From positions 1-23,642 of IMG/VR virus record IMGVR_UViG_3300046698_000534: DNA of 23,642 nucleotides; one strand, written 5' to 3'. A model generated the notes under the pieces. That model was not told the DNA's origin and made no database searches. It saw only the letters and a list, made by a program, of their open reading frames with translations. This DNA comes from a virus. The position numbers and the translations under genes were made by a program. Shown here piece after piece: positions 8,560 through 23,642 of the stretch (its first letter is position 1; each line of letters begins with the position of its first letter).

Positions 8560-9330
8560 TTATTTTCCTAAAGCCTGCTCATAAATTAGAATCTGTAAGC
8601 GAGGACTAAAATTAAATCCATGTTTTTTACACAACTCAGCAACCCATGGAGCTTTTTCTTTAAATTGTTTTGTTGTTGCACACTCAGGCATGAGCCATAT
8701 TTGCCTTCTATCAATTTTAAATTTATCAACATATTTTGTAAATAGTTCGTCTAAATCCTTCTCATTACAAATAACAAATTTAAAGGTGCTTGATTTATTT
8801 TGAGTATGCCATTCAAGTGCTTCTACAACATATCGCTTTTTCTCAGGATCACCATTATTGGAAAGCTTTGGGGAACAAATAAATGATGGTCGTAATGTAT
8901 CTACTTCATAAGGTGAATGATAATCATTTAGCCATTTACATTTTGGAATTAATGTAGCATTTGTTTCAAATTCAATATTTAAAGAAGTTTTCCATCTCTC
9001 TTGTGCACATTGACACCATTCAAAGAGATTTTTCTCCTGAATAAGAGCTTCGCCTCCGGTTAACTTAAAAATATCTCCTCTCTGTAGAAATGGAACAAAT
9101 TCTTTATCTTCAAATAACTTAAATAACTCTTCAAAGGTAAATTTATTCTTTACCTTCCATGCAACTGTACTATCACAACCATTCGGATTTTCAGGTGAAG
9201 CCCATCCAGAACAAGTAAGATTACAGAGAGATAAGCGCATGAATATAGCAGGCTTACCAATATTTTTACCTTCTCCTTCTATGGTACTAAAGATTTTGTC
9301 TGAAGAAAGATATATAATTTGTTCACTCAT
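8560..9330 (-). CDS. queE: 7-carboxy-7-deazaguanine synthase (QueE)
   Basis: A 256-residue radical SAM enzyme of the QueE type, which converts 6-carboxytetrahydropterin to 7-carboxy-7-deazaguanine. Evidence: an N-terminal FSTIEGEG substrate motif at 14-21, the FMRLSLCNLTC cluster start, TGGEAL near residue 95 (normally TGGEPL), and a late proline/aromatic C-terminus. The cluster cysteines appear as C36-x3-C40-x11-C52, with C52 in the GCDS context that normally follows the third Cys. Standard radical SAM enzymes have Cx3Cx2C, so an insertion of about nine residues is implied. QueE proteins with expanded motifs are known, which keeps the call firm. Neighbouring queD and folE in the same leftward block strongly support it. 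The start overlaps the stop of the 61-residue gene (ATGA). Confidence 0.9.
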   Translation of the reverse strand: MSEQIIYLSSDKIFSTIEGEGKNIGKPAIFMRLSLCNLTCSGWASPENPNGCDSTVAWKVKNKFTFEELFKLFEDKEFVPFLQRGDIFKLTGGEALIQEKNLFEWCQCAQERWKTSLNIEFETNATLIPKCKWLNDYHSPYEVDTLRPSFICSPKLSNNGDPEKKRYVVEALEWHTQNKSSTFKFVICNEKDLDELFTKYVDKFKIDRRQIWLMPECATTKQFKEKAPWVAELCKKHGFNFSPRLQILIYEQALGK

Positions 9331-9512
9331 AAATCTTCAATTCCATCACGAACTTCATCAGCATCCTTCGCAAGTCTTCTAAGTCGTTTACTAATATATG
9401 TCTCATCCTCACCAGTACAAAGACCACCGAGAGTTGCTGCATCTTTAACAACTTCAATCGGTGATGTAACAACATCAATAGCTGTTCCTAATAATTTTCC
9501 AAATAATCCCAT
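9327..9512 (-). CDS. Small conserved phage protein, MGLF...VTSPIEVVKD type
   Basis: A 61-residue protein. The N-terminal half is amphipathic and hydrophobic (LFGKLLGTAIDVVTSPIEVV), followed by ATLGGLCTGEDETYI and a charged helix (SKRLRRLAKDADEVRDGIEDL). I recall very similar short proteins with a TSPIEVVKD core in many tailed phages, always without known function. The single Cys and the Gly-Gly turn suggest a helix-turn-helix-like packing or membrane contact, which cannot be decided. It sits between queD and queE, 4 bases after the former, and overlaps the latter's ATG with its TGA, so it is co-translated with the deazaguanine genes even if unrelated in function. Confidence 0.75.
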   Translation of the reverse strand: MGLFGKLLGTAIDVVTSPIEVVKDAATLGGLCTGEDETYISKRLRRLAKDADEVRDGIEDL

Positions 9513-9516
9513 ATGT

Positions 9517-10104
9517 TTAATTAGTTATACTAAATTCTGCAGATGTTTTAGGTGTTTCTTTAAATGTAACACTTGAGACAGTCACTTTGAACTTCTCTAA
9601 TTCAGTTTTACATATACTAAAGACCCATTGTGCTAATCTCTCAGATGTTGGAACAAATGGAACTAATATAATTCCTTTTAAAACATCAGCTTCATAATCC
9701 TTTACACCTTCTAATATTCTCGGTGTCCAATAATTATGTTTATGGTTTTCAAAAGCGGGTTCTGTTAATGATGTTATGTGTTTCTTTGCTAAATTTGCCT
9801 TATAAATAAACGGTAGAGGTAAAAATATATTTTCAAGATAAGGATCCTCTACATCTAAAATCCATTTATGGTCCAGTTCTTCATCAATAAACCTTTTAAT
9901 GAAATTAAGGTTTTTGTAGTCGAAAACCATACTCTGTTCATTTAGAATAGTTCCTTCTAGTTGAACTATAAGTTGTCCGAAATGTCCGTGAATTGACTTA
10001 CATTTTGTAAGGTTGTCTAATGAAAGGCAAGTATTTAATACTTGATTATGTACTCGATGAGCATAATCAAAATCAAATGATTTAGAAATTTTCCATTTAT
10101 TCAT
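9517..10104 (-). CDS. queD: 6-carboxytetrahydropterin synthase (QueD), long form
   Basis: A 195-residue member of the 6-pyruvoyl-tetrahydropterin synthase family, converting dihydroneopterin triphosphate (the FolE product) to 6-carboxytetrahydropterin. Visible features: FDYAHR with zinc ligand H16, catalytic Cys C35 followed by IHGH with ligands H39 and H41, MVFDY at 59-63, LDH at 77-79 with the catalytic His, and PTSERLAQWV near the C-terminus. Typical QueD is about 120 residues. Here about 60 extra residues separate LDH from PTSE (roughly 90-150, with NHKHNYWTP and IILVPFVP), so it belongs to a longer-loop variant. The start overlaps the end of the upstream nucleotidyltransferase gene by 8 bases. 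It works between FolE and QueE in the preQ0 pathway. Confidence 0.92.
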   Translation of the reverse strand: MNKWKISKSFDFDYAHRVHNQVLNTCLSLDNLTKCKSIHGHFGQLIVQLEGTILNEQSMVFDYKNLNFIKRFIDEELDHKWILDVEDPYLENIFLPLPFIYKANLAKKHITSLTEPAFENHKHNYWTPRILEGVKDYEADVLKGIILVPFVPTSERLAQWVFSICKTELEKFKVTVSSVTFKETPKTSAEFSITN

Positions 10105-14475: not shown

Positions 14476-14483
14476 TATTTATC
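14476..14483 (-). promoter_or_regulatory. T4-type late promoter box (GATAAATA)
   Basis: GATAAATA on the minus strand, 6 bases before the ATG at 14469. It overlaps the TAA stop of folE. Confidence 0.5.
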
Positions 14484-15162
14484 TCTTTGACATTTCAATA
14501 AATTTATAAAATTCAAAACGTGATTGTTCCTTCGGATCTAAGAAGGCACCTGATAATTTTGATGTCATCATTATAGAGTTTTGTTTTACTCCACGGTTGC
14601 AGGCACATTGGTGTTTACAAGATAAAAATACTGCAACACCTTTATTTTTTTCACATACTTTATTCAAATATGAAAACACCTGATTAGTCAGCGTTTCTTG
14701 CACTTGTGGTCGATGACTAAACCACTCAACGATTCGTCCGAGTTTGGAATAACCAAGAACTTTTCCCCTTTCTGCTGGTATGTAGCAAACATGAGCTTCG
14801 CCAGTGAAAGATAAAAAATGATGGCAACAGAGACTTACAACAGGTATTAAACCAGAATAAACTAATCCAGTATATGATTCATAAAAAGAATCTGAATCCT
14901 CATCTTGGTTATCATTTGTATTATCGAAAGCTGTTATAACAGGAGGTGCTGTATAGCACCCACTTATTAAGTCATTTACCATAGCTTTAGCAACACGCTT
15001 TGGTGTTCCACACATATGTAAATCATTTTTATAATCAAAACCTAAAGCTGTAAGAAATTCACCATACTTCTCTGCAGCATTTTCAATGATTTTTTGCTTT
15101 TCTTCTTCTGTTTTTGAAATACTATGATTTCCACGTTCTAAGAGATTAGATATTTTATTCAT
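14479..15162 (-). CDS. folE: GTP cyclohydrolase I (FolE)
   Basis: A 227-residue GTP cyclohydrolase I, which converts GTP to 7,8-dihydroneopterin triphosphate, the first step toward folate and 7-deazaguanines. Motifs: CGTPKRVAKA at 51-60, SLCCHHFLSFTGEAHVCYIP (110-129) with zinc ligands C112 and H115, VLGYSKLGRIVEWFSHRPQVQE (substrate and tetramer contacts, 135-156), and HQCACNRGVKQNS with zinc ligand C186. The usual CEHH motif reads CCHH, so a glutamate is replaced by C113. Length is normal for the family. With queD and queE in the same block, the likely use is preQ0 synthesis. A perfect TATAAT lies 7 bases before the ATG in the divergent gap with the rightward nucleotidyltransferase gene. 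Confidence 0.95.
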   Translation of the reverse strand: MNKISNLLERGNHSISKTEEEKQKIIENAAEKYGEFLTALGFDYKNDLHMCGTPKRVAKAMVNDLISGCYTAPPVITAFDNTNDNQDEDSDSFYESYTGLVYSGLIPVVSLCCHHFLSFTGEAHVCYIPAERGKVLGYSKLGRIVEWFSHRPQVQETLTNQVFSYLNKVCEKNKGVAVFLSCKHQCACNRGVKQNSIMMTSKLSGAFLDPKEQSRFEFYKFIEMSKR

Positions 15163-21053: not shown

Positions 21054-21479
21054 ATGTCAGATGTAAGTACAGAATTAGTAGAAAAAACACTTCTTGAGCG
21101 TTATATAGAAGAAGTTAAAGTTGACACTAAGCTTGATGAATTCACAATTAAAGACGTTCAAATGCGTTTACCAGGATTAAAACATAAATGGGTAGGACAA
21201 TTAATTAGAAGTAAGGTAACACTAAATCGTTTACAAAAAGAAAAAGAGAAACTTAAAAAAGAAATTGTTGAAAAACTTAAAACAGAATCACCGGTGAAGA
21301 TGTCTGATGTTGCTTTTGAAAGAACAGCAGAAGGCCATGAACGAATGAAGGGATTAACTTCTAGCATTGAAGAATTAAAAATTGTAATTGAGTATTTAGA
21401 GAAGGTTGAGAAAATATTTCATTCTTTCACTTTTGATTTGCGCAATGCTATACAAATTATGCAGATGGAGACACTTTAA
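21054..21479 (+). CDS. uvsY: UvsY-like recombination mediator
   Basis: A 141-residue protein similar to T4 UvsY, which loads the UvsX recombinase onto gp32-coated single-stranded DNA. Seen: an early VDTKLDEFTIKDVQMRLPGLKHKWVGQLIRSK (residues 23-54), where the 'P-x-L-K/H-x-K-W' core matches the phage UvsY signature, followed by a long Lys/Glu coiled coil (LQKEKEKLKKEIVEKLK) and a helical C-terminus (ELKIVIEYLEKVEKIFHSFTFDLRNAIQ) like that of UvsY, which ends with a helix carrying an 'IKNAI'-type motif. Length matches T4 UvsY (137). It is followed within 3 bases by a zinc protein and then uvsW, similar to the T4 uvsY / small genes / uvsW neighbourhood. Confidence 0.85.
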   Translation: MSDVSTELVEKTLLERYIEEVKVDTKLDEFTIKDVQMRLPGLKHKWVGQLIRSKVTLNRLQKEKEKLKKEIVEKLKTESPVKMSDVAFERTAEGHERMKGLTSSIEELKIVIEYLEKVEKIFHSFTFDLRNAIQIMQMETL

Positions 21480-21482
21480 TTT

Positions 21483-21812
21483 ATGAAAATAATAAAACCT
21501 GGAGTAAAACCTGGAGTAATACCAAAAGAAATATTGTGGTGGTGTGGACATACAGTTCGTTGTACGTTGTGTAAATGTGAATTTAGGTTAGAACCTCATG
21601 ATACTATTATTAAAAATTCTATCTATGAAAAAGATACTGAAAAAGTAAAATTTAAATGTCCTACATGTCAAACATTGCTATCGTTTGAAAAAGGTATGAT
21701 AAAAACATCATCTGTGGATACGTCTATGTTTGATGAAATTTTTGATGAAATTTTTGGTAAAAAAGGCTATTTTGAAAAACTTTTTGAAGTATTACCATCA
21801 AATGTTAATTAA
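21483..21812 (+). CDS. Small zinc-binding protein between uvsY and uvsW
   Basis: A 109-residue protein with cysteines at 21, 27, 30, 32, 59 and 62 (WWCGH, CTLCKC, CPTC), enough for a zinc-ribbon-like site. The N-terminus repeats KPGV (residues 5-8 and 9-12), and the C-terminus repeats FDEI (FDEIFDEIF), both from short DNA duplications. T4 also has small genes between uvsY and uvsW, but I cannot claim homology. It starts 3 bases after uvsY and overlaps the uvsW start by 11 bases, so the three are one transcript. Function unknown; a nucleic-acid-binding accessory for recombination is plausible. Confidence 0.72.
   Translation: MKIIKPGVKPGVIPKEILWWCGHTVRCTLCKCEFRLEPHDTIIKNSIYEKDTEKVKFKCPTCQTLLSFEKGMIKTSSVDTSMFDEIFDEIFGKKGYFEKLFEVLPSNVN
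21727..21756 (+). repeat. Short tandem DNA duplication encoding FDEIFDEIF
   Basis: A 12-base unit TTTGATGAAATT occurs twice in tandem near the end of the zinc protein gene. A slippage product. Confidence 0.6.
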
Positions 21813-22881
21813 ATTCAGCTGGGACACAAAACAAAAACATGGGCTAATTTCAGGTGATGGAGATGTTTTTAATTCAATCCGAGAAGCTTTTTCAGTAAAA
21901 AATATTGCTGCAACGTTTAATAAACATAATCCCTGGATTCCGCAACGAAAGTATGCTATTACACCTACTGGAAGATTTGAACCGGGCTTACTTTTTGAAA
22001 TCCAAAAATACACTCATACACAATTTCCAGGTATAGAAGTGATAATATCATCAGAACTACAGGAACTTGTTATTTCTCCGTTAAATGTACCTATTTTCAC
22101 TAGTTTATCGCAAGAATTACGTTATTATCAAACTGATATTGTTGAGAAGTGTTTAAAACAAGGACGTGGGACAGTTGTCTTGGCTACTGCCGGTGGAAAA
22201 ACACTTACAATTGCAGCTTTAATAAATAGTATTTATCAGACGAAAAAAGATTTGAAGTGTTTAGTAATTGTTCCTGATTTAGGATTAGTTAGTCAAATCT
22301 ATAATGAATTTTCTACTTTAGGTGTTACTTTTTCAGTGAGTAAATGGACTGGTAAACAAAAGCTAAATTTAGGTACTAATGCTGTAATAGCAAACTTAGG
22401 AATATTACAAAGCGAATGCTCTGATATAGATTGGATTGAAGATATTGATGTATTAGTTGTTGATGAATGTTTACGGCAAAATACTATAATTAATACTAAA
22501 CAAGGAAAAAAGTCTATACAAGACGTTTACATAGGTGATTATGTATTGTCTTATAATATTGAAGCAAGTAGAAAGGAATATAAAAAAGTTGTTAATCTAT
22601 GGAAGAATTTACCTAAAAGTAATAGTGATTATTTTTTAGAAATCAAATTAAAAGATGGTAAAGTAATACATTTAACACCTAATCATAAAATTTTAACACA
22701 ACGAGGATATATACAGGCAAAATATTTAAACCTACAAGATGATATTTTTTGCATTAATTCATCTAAATTAATGCACTTGTGGTATAAATATTTGTATGCA
22801 AAAACAAATTGGAAAATATATATGCAAAATCTGTGGCAAAGAGGAAAAATATATTTTAAGACATCTAAAAAATCATCATAA
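21802..22881 (+). CDS. uvsW: UvsW-like helicase, N-terminal half ending in a split-intein N-half
   Basis: From the ATG at 21802 the frame encodes 360 residues. Residues 1-222 are the N-terminal half of a superfamily 2 helicase of the T4 UvsW type: RYYQ (107-110), Walker A ATAGGKT (128-134), CLVIVPDLGLVSQ, and IDVLVVDE ending at 222. T4 UvsW (about 500 residues) reads DECH here, but instead the frame runs into an intein: C223, a block A, and block B with HLTPNHKIL (290-298). The last 35 or so residues look like the adjacent endonuclease gene read in the wrong frame. The C-terminal helicase domain is not in the window. The start was chosen because it overlaps the zinc gene by 11 bases; residues upstream (from 21730) look like junk. 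Confidence 0.88.
   Translation: MLIKFSWDTKQKHGLISGDGDVFNSIREAFSVKNIAATFNKHNPWIPQRKYAITPTGRFEPGLLFEIQKYTHTQFPGIEVIISSELQELVISPLNVPIFTSLSQELRYYQTDIVEKCLKQGRGTVVLATAGGKTLTIAALINSIYQTKKDLKCLVIVPDLGLVSQIYNEFSTLGVTFSVSKWTGKQKLNLGTNAVIANLGILQSECSDIDWIEDIDVLVVDECLRQNTIINTKQGKKSIQDVYIGDYVLSYNIEASRKEYKKVVNLWKNLPKSNSDYFLEIKLKDGKVIHLTPNHKILTQRGYIQAKYLNLQDDIFCINSSKLMHLWYKYLYAKTNWKIYMQNLWQRGKIYFKTSKKSS
22468..22881 (+). mobile_element. N-terminal half of a (probably split) intein
   Basis: It begins with Cys at 22468-22470, directly after the DE of helicase motif II. Block A is CLRQNTIINT...IQDVYIGDYVLSY. Block B is KDGKVIHLTPNHKIL...QAKYLNLQDDIF, with the conserved T-x-x-H (T292, H295 of the helicase frame). 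The recognisable core ends at about 22750, near 94 residues after the Cys, a normal size for an N-intein. The frame then stops at 22881, with no intein endonuclease or C-terminal blocks in the same frame. Confidence 0.85.
22783..22790 (+). promoter_or_regulatory. T4-type late promoter box (TATAAATA)
   Basis: A perfect TATAAATA, exactly 5 bases before the ATG of the endonuclease gene at 22796, inside the intein-helicase reading frame. It suggests independent late expression of the endonuclease. Confidence 0.6.
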
Positions 22882-23642
22882 AGAGTATAATACTAAAACA
22901 TTAAAAGAATATTATGATCTTTACTATAAGCAAAAAGAAGAAGGTATATGTAAATCTTGTAAACATCCTACAAGGTTTACTGGGCAAATTAAAACAGGAT
23001 ATGCACAATTTTGTACTAAAAAATGTTGTGCTTTAATAAATTCAAAACGAAGAATAGGTGTTCCTTTGTCAGATGAATCTAAAAAAAAGATAAAAATAGC
23101 ACGTATTAAATATTTTAAAACTAAAAAAGGTAAAAGGTTTAGAAAAAAATTAAGTTTATCAAGAAAAGGTAGTAAAAATCCTATACATCGAAGAGATTTA
23201 GAAAAATGGAAAAGGGCGTGTATTGAAAAATCAAAATTATTAAAGGAAAGAATAAAAAATGGAACGTTTACACCACCTATAACTAATACATGGGCAAATT
23301 CAAAAACAAAACTCTATTTAACAAAGGATAGGTGGTTTAGAAGTACATGGGAAGCAGCTTTTTTTATATTAAATTCAAAATTAGAATATGAAAAAATCAG
23401 AATACAATATGTAAGTGAGAATAATATTAATAAAAATTATATAGTTGATTTTGTAGATGTAGAGGGGAAAATATTATATGAAGTAAAGCCTGATTGTTAT
23501 AAAGATTCTATTAATTTTAAATTAAAACAAGCAGCAGCAAATAAATGGTGTATTGAGAATGGTTATACATATGTAGTAATTAATAATGATTATTTTAAAG
23601 CAAATGCAAAAAGAATTAATTATAAAAAATTTCCTCAAATAC
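22796..23642 (+). CDS. Homing endonuclease, Vsr/PD-(D/E)XK-like, incomplete at window edge
   Basis: An open frame (plus strand, shifted +1 relative to uvsW) from the ATG at 22796 to the edge, at least 282 residues, overlapping the end of the intein frame by 86 bases. Domains: a C2H2-like finger YICKICGKEEKYILRHLKNHH (8-28), then NTKTLKEYYD typical of intron endonucleases; a second treble-clef-like CKSC...FCTKKC finger (52-77); a NUMOD3-like LSDESKKKIKIAR (91-103) with a very basic linker; and a nuclease core RSTWEAAFFIL (182-192), YIVDFVD (215-221), YEVKPD (228-233), i.e. E...D...ExK. The best fit is a Vsr-type homing endonuclease as associated with split inteins. Very A-rich, unlike the helicase. 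The C-terminus is missing. Confidence 0.85.
   Translation, partial: MQKQIGKYICKICGKEEKYILRHLKNHHKEYNTKTLKEYYDLYYKQKEEGICKSCKHPTRFTGQIKTGYAQFCTKKCCALINSKRRIGVPLSDESKKKIKIARIKYFKTKKGKRFRKKLSLSRKGSKNPIHRRDLEKWKRACIEKSKLLKERIKNGTFTPPITNTWANSKTKLYLTKDRWFRSTWEAAFFILNSKLEYEKIRIQYVSENNINKNYIVDFVDVEGKILYEVKPDCYKDSINFKLKQAAANKWCIENGYTYVVINNDYFKANAKRINYKKFPQI

Follow-up and report, generated by a model that had tools for sequence, protein, structure and literature searches.

A phage helicase gene that breaks off inside its own catalytic motif, with a second open reading frame (ORF) starting out of frame behind it, raises the question of whether the gene is dead, misread, or expressed in pieces that are later rejoined. 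The gene lies at the end of the stretch of DNA analyzed here (the window), which is the complete IMG/VR record IMGVR_UViG_3300046698_000534 of 23,642 bases; any second half of the helicase would lie outside the record. The UvsW-like helicase ORF (21802-22881, plus strand) is broken after D221-E222 of the Walker B/DECH box. Its frame reads ..VVVDE222↓C223LRQNTII.. without interruption (the arrow marks the break here and below) and stops at 22881. The next ORF, encoding a putative endonuclease, begins at an ATG at 22796, shifted by +1 from the helicase frame, is overlapped by the intein frame over 86 nt, and is open at the record end; 282 residues are visible, and the record ends about 9 residues short of the expected stop. 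The original prediction, made from the sequence alone, had given the same interrupted frame, the same stop and the same out-of-frame endonuclease start, and its observation of a broken helicase gene is confirmed: the layout is far beyond chance and is repeated in nine clade members and in more than 60 further loci.

We consider it very probable that this is a fractured gene, in which the helicase sequence is divided over two ORFs that each carry one split-intein half, with a putative homing endonuclease between them; the halves would be rejoined by trans-splicing and the unit spread by homing. This was also how the locus had been read at the outset, as a uvsW gene fractured at an active-site position, and the N-half in the window and the C-halves of its relatives support that reading. 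The features are collected in Table 1.

Table 1. Features at the interrupted helicase locus (window positions)
Feature	Position	Strand	Basis or remark
N-extein, first 222 residues of UvsW-like SF2 helicase	21802..22467	+	ResIII/DEAD; phrog_16259/phrog_16
N-terminal split-intein half, C223 to I315	22468..22746	+	TIGR01445; invariant columns shared with PM2, S16, SEA1 and Lak
Clade-specific N-intein tail, FCINSSKLMHLWYKYLYA	22747..22800	+	Helicase/intein frame conserved as far as the endonuclease ATG
TATAAATA, 13 nt upstream of the endonuclease ATG	22783..22790	+	At -13 in most clade members
Putative free-standing homing endonuclease, N-terminal CxxC motifs and TnsA-like core	22796..23642	+	PHROG; conserved columns; fold
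Intein-frame read-through of variable length into the endonuclease, ending at the 22881 stop	22801..22881	+	Clade difference phases; tail length varies
TnsA-like PD-(D/E)XK catalytic core (W185-E186, D218, E229, K231)	23204..23611	+	Conserved columns; TnsA Z
Record end	23642..23642	+	C-intein and helicase C-half predicted ~25-35 nt further on, from relatives' spacing

The N-extein carries the Walker A motif TAGGKT and the Walker B motif ..LVVDE, and residues 105-225 of the ORF match ResIII/DEAD. The helicase core belongs to SF2, UvsW group, as indicated by phrog_16259, phrog_16 and the Helicase_C match of the C-half in the clade; phrog_16259, a family of the helicase N-half plus N-intein type, matches residues 82-316 (E 3e-40). 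The UvsW_N domain (PF21241), for which the protein of Proteus phage PM2 scores 140 bits, had no match in the window helicase protein, and we therefore use the name UvsW-like. The expected intein blocks A (CLRQNTII) and B (HLTPNHKILT) follow E222, and the window thus holds an N-terminal part ending in an N-intein, with the endonuclease ORF next. TIGR01445 (intein_Nterm) covers residues 223-299 with 35.3 bits against a cut-off of 24.5, and the Pfam Intein_splicing/Hint match is just below cut-off. Invariant N-intein columns are common to the window and the N-halves of PM2, S16, SEA1 and Lak. An AlphaFold model of the N-half was dropped as a guide to the intein fold because its quality was too poor; the intein part has a mean pLDDT of 61, which we counted against a fractured gene.

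Scans of IMG/VR with the single endonuclease or N-intein sequence gave no matches, and the nine-member endonuclease alignment had no conserved stretch long enough for scanning; the loci were found by alignment-led IMG/VR scans. The nine nearest endonucleases (L093, L094, L095, L097, L098, L099, L100, L109 and L128) sit in UvsW-like N-halves that are 43-54% identical to that of the window, and the gene directly upstream of the window helicase (21054-21479) is also found in eight of the clade loci. In all nine the offset is again +1, the endonuclease starts alike (MQ[KR]..) and the intein frame overruns that start. Among the eight N-halves compared the offset is always +1, the overlap is 43-175 nt, and the intein-frame stops fall at different places. 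Upstream of the endonuclease ATG, the differences among clade members number 94, 239 and 182 by phase, with 239 at intein position 3; downstream, 231 fall at the third position of the endonuclease frame vs 189 and 156 at the other phases. Given this phase switch, the coding frame changes hands at the endonuclease ATG in all members, and because the change is common to the clade, a sequencing frameshift in one contig is no explanation.

The missing half of the gene can be read in the relatives. A C-half ORF adjoins or overlaps the endonuclease stop in L093, L094, L097, L098, L100, L109 and L128. It consists of a Met, about 35 C-intein residues ending in VSN, CH and then the remaining helicase; the C-half of L097 reads MKIKQIRTILRNNEDVYNIEVADNNNYYANNMLVSN↓CHRLRKGN.. 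and matches Helicase_C. A separate ORF of this form (Met, 35-40 C-intein residues, CH) had been foreseen downstream of the endonuclease, and a separate C-intein plus C-extein ORF occurs in every close relative with sequence past the endonuclease, and also in S16 and PM2; the record of this phage ends earlier. Judging by the spacing from endonuclease end to C-half start in L093, L094, L097, L100, L109 and L128, the C-half of this phage would start about 25-35 nt beyond the record end.

Cys1, the block B TxxH, the terminal Asn and Cys+1 are present in every readable clade junction and in S16 and PM2. The intein halves would bring the two proteins together for splicing in trans, with Cys1 as nucleophile together with Cys+1 and the terminal Asn, and splicing would rebuild the DECH helicase active site with no scar left. 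With the intein inside a catalytic motif, the helicase stays active only if the element is removed exactly or splicing is efficient. The phage probably rejoins its two helicase halves after translation. The endonuclease, in turn, would cut intein-less uvsW alleles at the junction, and repair of the cut allele would copy the whole N-intein/endonuclease/C-intein unit into it.

Programmed +1 frameshifting, which would yield some N-intein-endonuclease fusion product, agrees with the uniform offset and the overlap in the eight N-halves; we nevertheless regard it as very unlikely, given that the endonuclease's own ATG is conserved at the same place in every member and that in other groups the two ORFs overlap by a few bases or stand apart. 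Split phage enzymes that function without splicing are known: NrdA of Aeh1 is split without an intein and works without splicing (PMC2988022). A comparable non-covalent two-subunit helicase with inert intein halves is extremely unlikely here, as the catalytic intein residues are kept and the break falls inside the catalytic motif. That no C-half is visible in this record would also fit a dead helicase, one whose C-half has disappeared or decayed and whose N-half is a relic, but the N-half and endonuclease are intact, the clade retains its C-halves and the intein-frame constraint reaches the endonuclease ATG, and we rate this as exceedingly improbable. The chance that a single continuous intein with an embedded endonuclease looks split merely because assembly or sequencing introduced a frameshift between 22772 and 22881, an alternative raised with the original prediction, is next to negligible: both frames are open there, so one indel would fuse them, and N-intein/endonuclease fusions do occur in relatives (L191 and the phiS TerL), but clade members on other metagenome contigs share the +1 offset and the endonuclease ATG while their intein stops vary, and wherever a clade contig extends far enough, its C-half has an ORF of its own, the third of the locus.

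We also counted against a fractured gene that there is no Shine-Dalgarno-like sequence upstream of the endonuclease ATG at 22796. The TATAAATA before the endonuclease is possibly a T4-type late promoter, or simply YKY codons, for which it also codes; it is not in excess within the window (6 vs 5.0 expected).

We compared the locus to those of isolated phages. Searches by tblastn with the N-half and endonuclease retrieved Proteus PM2, Salmonella S16, STP4-a, SEA1 and others, as well as Prevotella Lak phages, and the same three-piece layout is found in the S16, SEA1, PM2 and Prevotella Lak genomes (in Lak-B4 once TAG is read as Gln). In S16, the ORF of uvsW-N with its intein half comes first, followed by an endonuclease ORF of 291 residues and then by an ORF joining the C-intein to uvsW-C; the intein ends ...ANGALAHN↓CHLATGKS. 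The loci of S16, STP4-a, SEA1 and PM2 resemble the window in gene (uvsW), site, three-ORF order and related intein and endonuclease, although they are only about 30% identical to it and their N-intein stops right at the endonuclease start, whereas that of the window runs into it. Only helicase pieces and a hypothetical protein are annotated at the uvsW locus of these isolates. The arrangement is of a known kind, and the uvsW fracture is already present in sequenced isolates, unrecognised in annotation.

The Salmonella phage STML-198 belongs to the genus of S16, and its uvsW is a single intact gene of 1,500 bp. Relative to STML-198, S16 carries an exact 1,227-bp insertion between ..GACGAG and TGCCAC.. 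(DE↓CH), and the flanks of the insertion align at 94% and 98%. Identity in the left flank is 93-95% within 500 bp of the site and 100% beyond, a drop that we interpret as a likely trace of co-conversion during homing. S16, with the element, and STML-198, without it, are culturable, and both trans-splicing and homing would be directly testable in this pair. The joined (contiguous) junction site occurs in about 2,277 phage records. In PM2, an HNH-like ORF lies directly after the uvsW C-half and before a uvsW.1 fragment (L002:7688-8398); it may be another homing endonuclease of this locus.

We assessed which family the endonuclease belongs to. Its core matches phrog_22417 (9e-22) and phrog_15427 (5e-21). 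Among 39 aligned members, D218 and E229 are invariant and K231 is kept in at least 90%; W185 is invariant or near-invariant. A sequence search against solved structures gave no meaningful match, and the family assignment therefore rests on Pfam and fold. The window endonuclease scores 21.8 bits with Pfam TnsA-like_N (PF08722) against a cut-off of 26.5, which is passed by the family members CP20 (29.5) and L119 (31.0). In the structure model (mean pLDDT 90.9), the best fold match of the core is TnsA of Tn7 (1t0f and 1f1z, Z 8.8 and 8.4), to which Foldseek assigned a probability of 0.99 but an E of 0.05. Lower matches, in the same superfamily, are Vsr (1cw0, Z 5.8) and I-Bth0305I (3r3p, Z 5.4). 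Although TnsA of Tn7 is a transposase subunit with only 10-11% identity to the endonuclease core, and the match leaves the N-terminal arm uncovered, the endonuclease has a TnsA-type fold and an E..D..(E/Q)xK active site, and the model places it as a TnsA-like PD-(D/E)XK enzyme, closer to TnsA than to Vsr or I-Bth0305I. The N-terminal part holds CxxC pairs, among which C55 and C77 are nearly invariant; these pairs suggest a zinc-binding DNA-recognition arm.

Fractured genes were reportedly described by Dassa et al. in 2009 as phage enzyme genes broken by split-intein halves with a free-standing endonuclease in the gap, the endonuclease being said to be Vsr-like (later EDxHD, I-Bth0305I). The window resembles this type in its conserved phage gene, split-intein halves and endonuclease ORF in the gap, but its endonuclease is TnsA-like, with D..ExK and no conserved His, whereas that of the Dassa type is reportedly Vsr-like. 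No invariant or near-invariant His, and no E-D-x-H-D motif, was found in the 39 aligned endonucleases, and we rejected an EDxHD/Vsr-like family. The Vsr/PD-(D/E)XK-like core proposed at first stands as PD-(D/E)XK, with D218, E229 and K231, and is nearer to TnsA than to the Vsr type. Literature outside the gene list of Dassa 2009 yielded no description of a split uvsW intein, which is no proof of absence.

The uvsW-led scan yielded 80 loci. In addition to the three-ORF form, the DE↓CH site is occupied in some loci by a continuous mini-intein (e.g. L021, L070, L086) or a split intein (e.g. L015, L056), in both cases without endonuclease. About 800 bp of endonuclease is gone from L056 (645-795), leaving short start and end remnants and both intein halves; its N-half is 90% identical to that of L024, which keeps the full endonuclease, i.e. 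the split appears to outlive the nuclease.

The endonuclease-led scan, with no selection for host gene or site, yielded 84 distinct endonucleases. Three of the 84 are cut by the contig end, and two are free-standing beside a clamp-loader gene with an intact site. In these two (L159:1110-2844 and L170:3632-5369), the endonuclease lies directly upstream of the clamp-loader gene, where Walker B is DEF, with no intein. The break falls exactly at Asp-Glu↓Cys of Walker B in 76 of the 79 loci with a readable upstream half, a count that includes L191, added by hand as its N-half is fused to the endonuclease; the other three are TerL cases (L174, L175 and L198), broken five residues further on. The interrupted P-loop NTPase genes encode UvsW-like helicases, TerL, clamp loader, PhoH, XPD/DinG-like helicase and SNF2 helicase, names that were tested with Pfam for some and taken from sequence reading and relatives' annotation for others. 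TerL inteins are split near the N-terminus, and inteins of the other host genes at the usual endonuclease position.

In a tree of 107 endonuclease cores, copies from one host gene tend to group together without being monophyletic. Those from clamp-loader genes appear at five separate points, at least three of which are required by well-supported branches, and some groupings that mix host genes are supported as well: helicase L137 joins TerL L096 and L102, for instance, and XPD-like copies join UvsW copies. With a short alignment of 137 columns and many forks left unresolved, the count of between-gene transfers is uncertain. The window endonuclease falls in a supported clade of eight, all UvsW.

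This TnsA-like family, near-exclusive to Walker B DE↓C across unrelated ATPases, looks like a new variant. We see the evidence as evenly balanced for and against a broader proposal, that one TnsA-like homing endonuclease family has become a specialist for the codons GAY-GAR↓TGY (Asp-Glu↓Cys) in the Walker B motif of phage P-loop NTPases and hops between UvsW, TerL, clamp loader, PhoH, XPD/DinG-like and SNF2 genes, nearly always with split inteins whose break position differs by gene, so that the ATPase active site of many phages would have to be restored by trans-splicing. The loci surveyed suggest that protein trans-splicing within catalytic motifs is a widespread phage strategy, beyond a few marine contigs, and the family is a candidate new class of homing enzymes sharing an active-site target. 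New protein-ligation tools could be drawn from the dozens of natural split-intein pairs whose junction is DE↓CH.

Other natural systems differ in part. The atypical split inteins AceL-TerL, GOS-TerL and Cat-TerL of phage TerL have N-inteins of 25-37 residues (PMC11766414), whereas that of the window has about 100 and the host genes differ; TerL breaks in our survey that carry the window's endonuclease family have a short N-half and a long C-half, as in the AceL-TerL type. PolB of phage MIJ3 has a split intein with a separate endonuclease (PMC6892783), like the window, but the enzyme is HNH and the gene and site are different.

Several surveyed loci depart from the three-piece layout. Two split inteins apparently divide the TerL gene of L174 (1985-5927) into three pieces; the middle extein (CLVIDECAFVE) is just about 11 residues long, and an endonuclease of the same family as in the window occupies the second gap. 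In phage phiS (L009:1139-4250) and L191 (2816-5324), N-half, N-intein and endonuclease are fused and the C-half is separate; these fused ORFs are an intermediate form between fractured and continuous. In Bacillus phage G (L006:4728-7360, gp221-gp223), an intein divides a UvsW-like helicase at DE↓CH, and the gap contains the small ORF gp222 instead of an endonuclease. Elsewhere in the window, on the minus strand, ORFs at 8560-10104 and 14479-15162 resemble by eye QueE, QueD and the GTP cyclohydrolase FolE, a sign that the phage may carry a 7-deazaguanine pathway.
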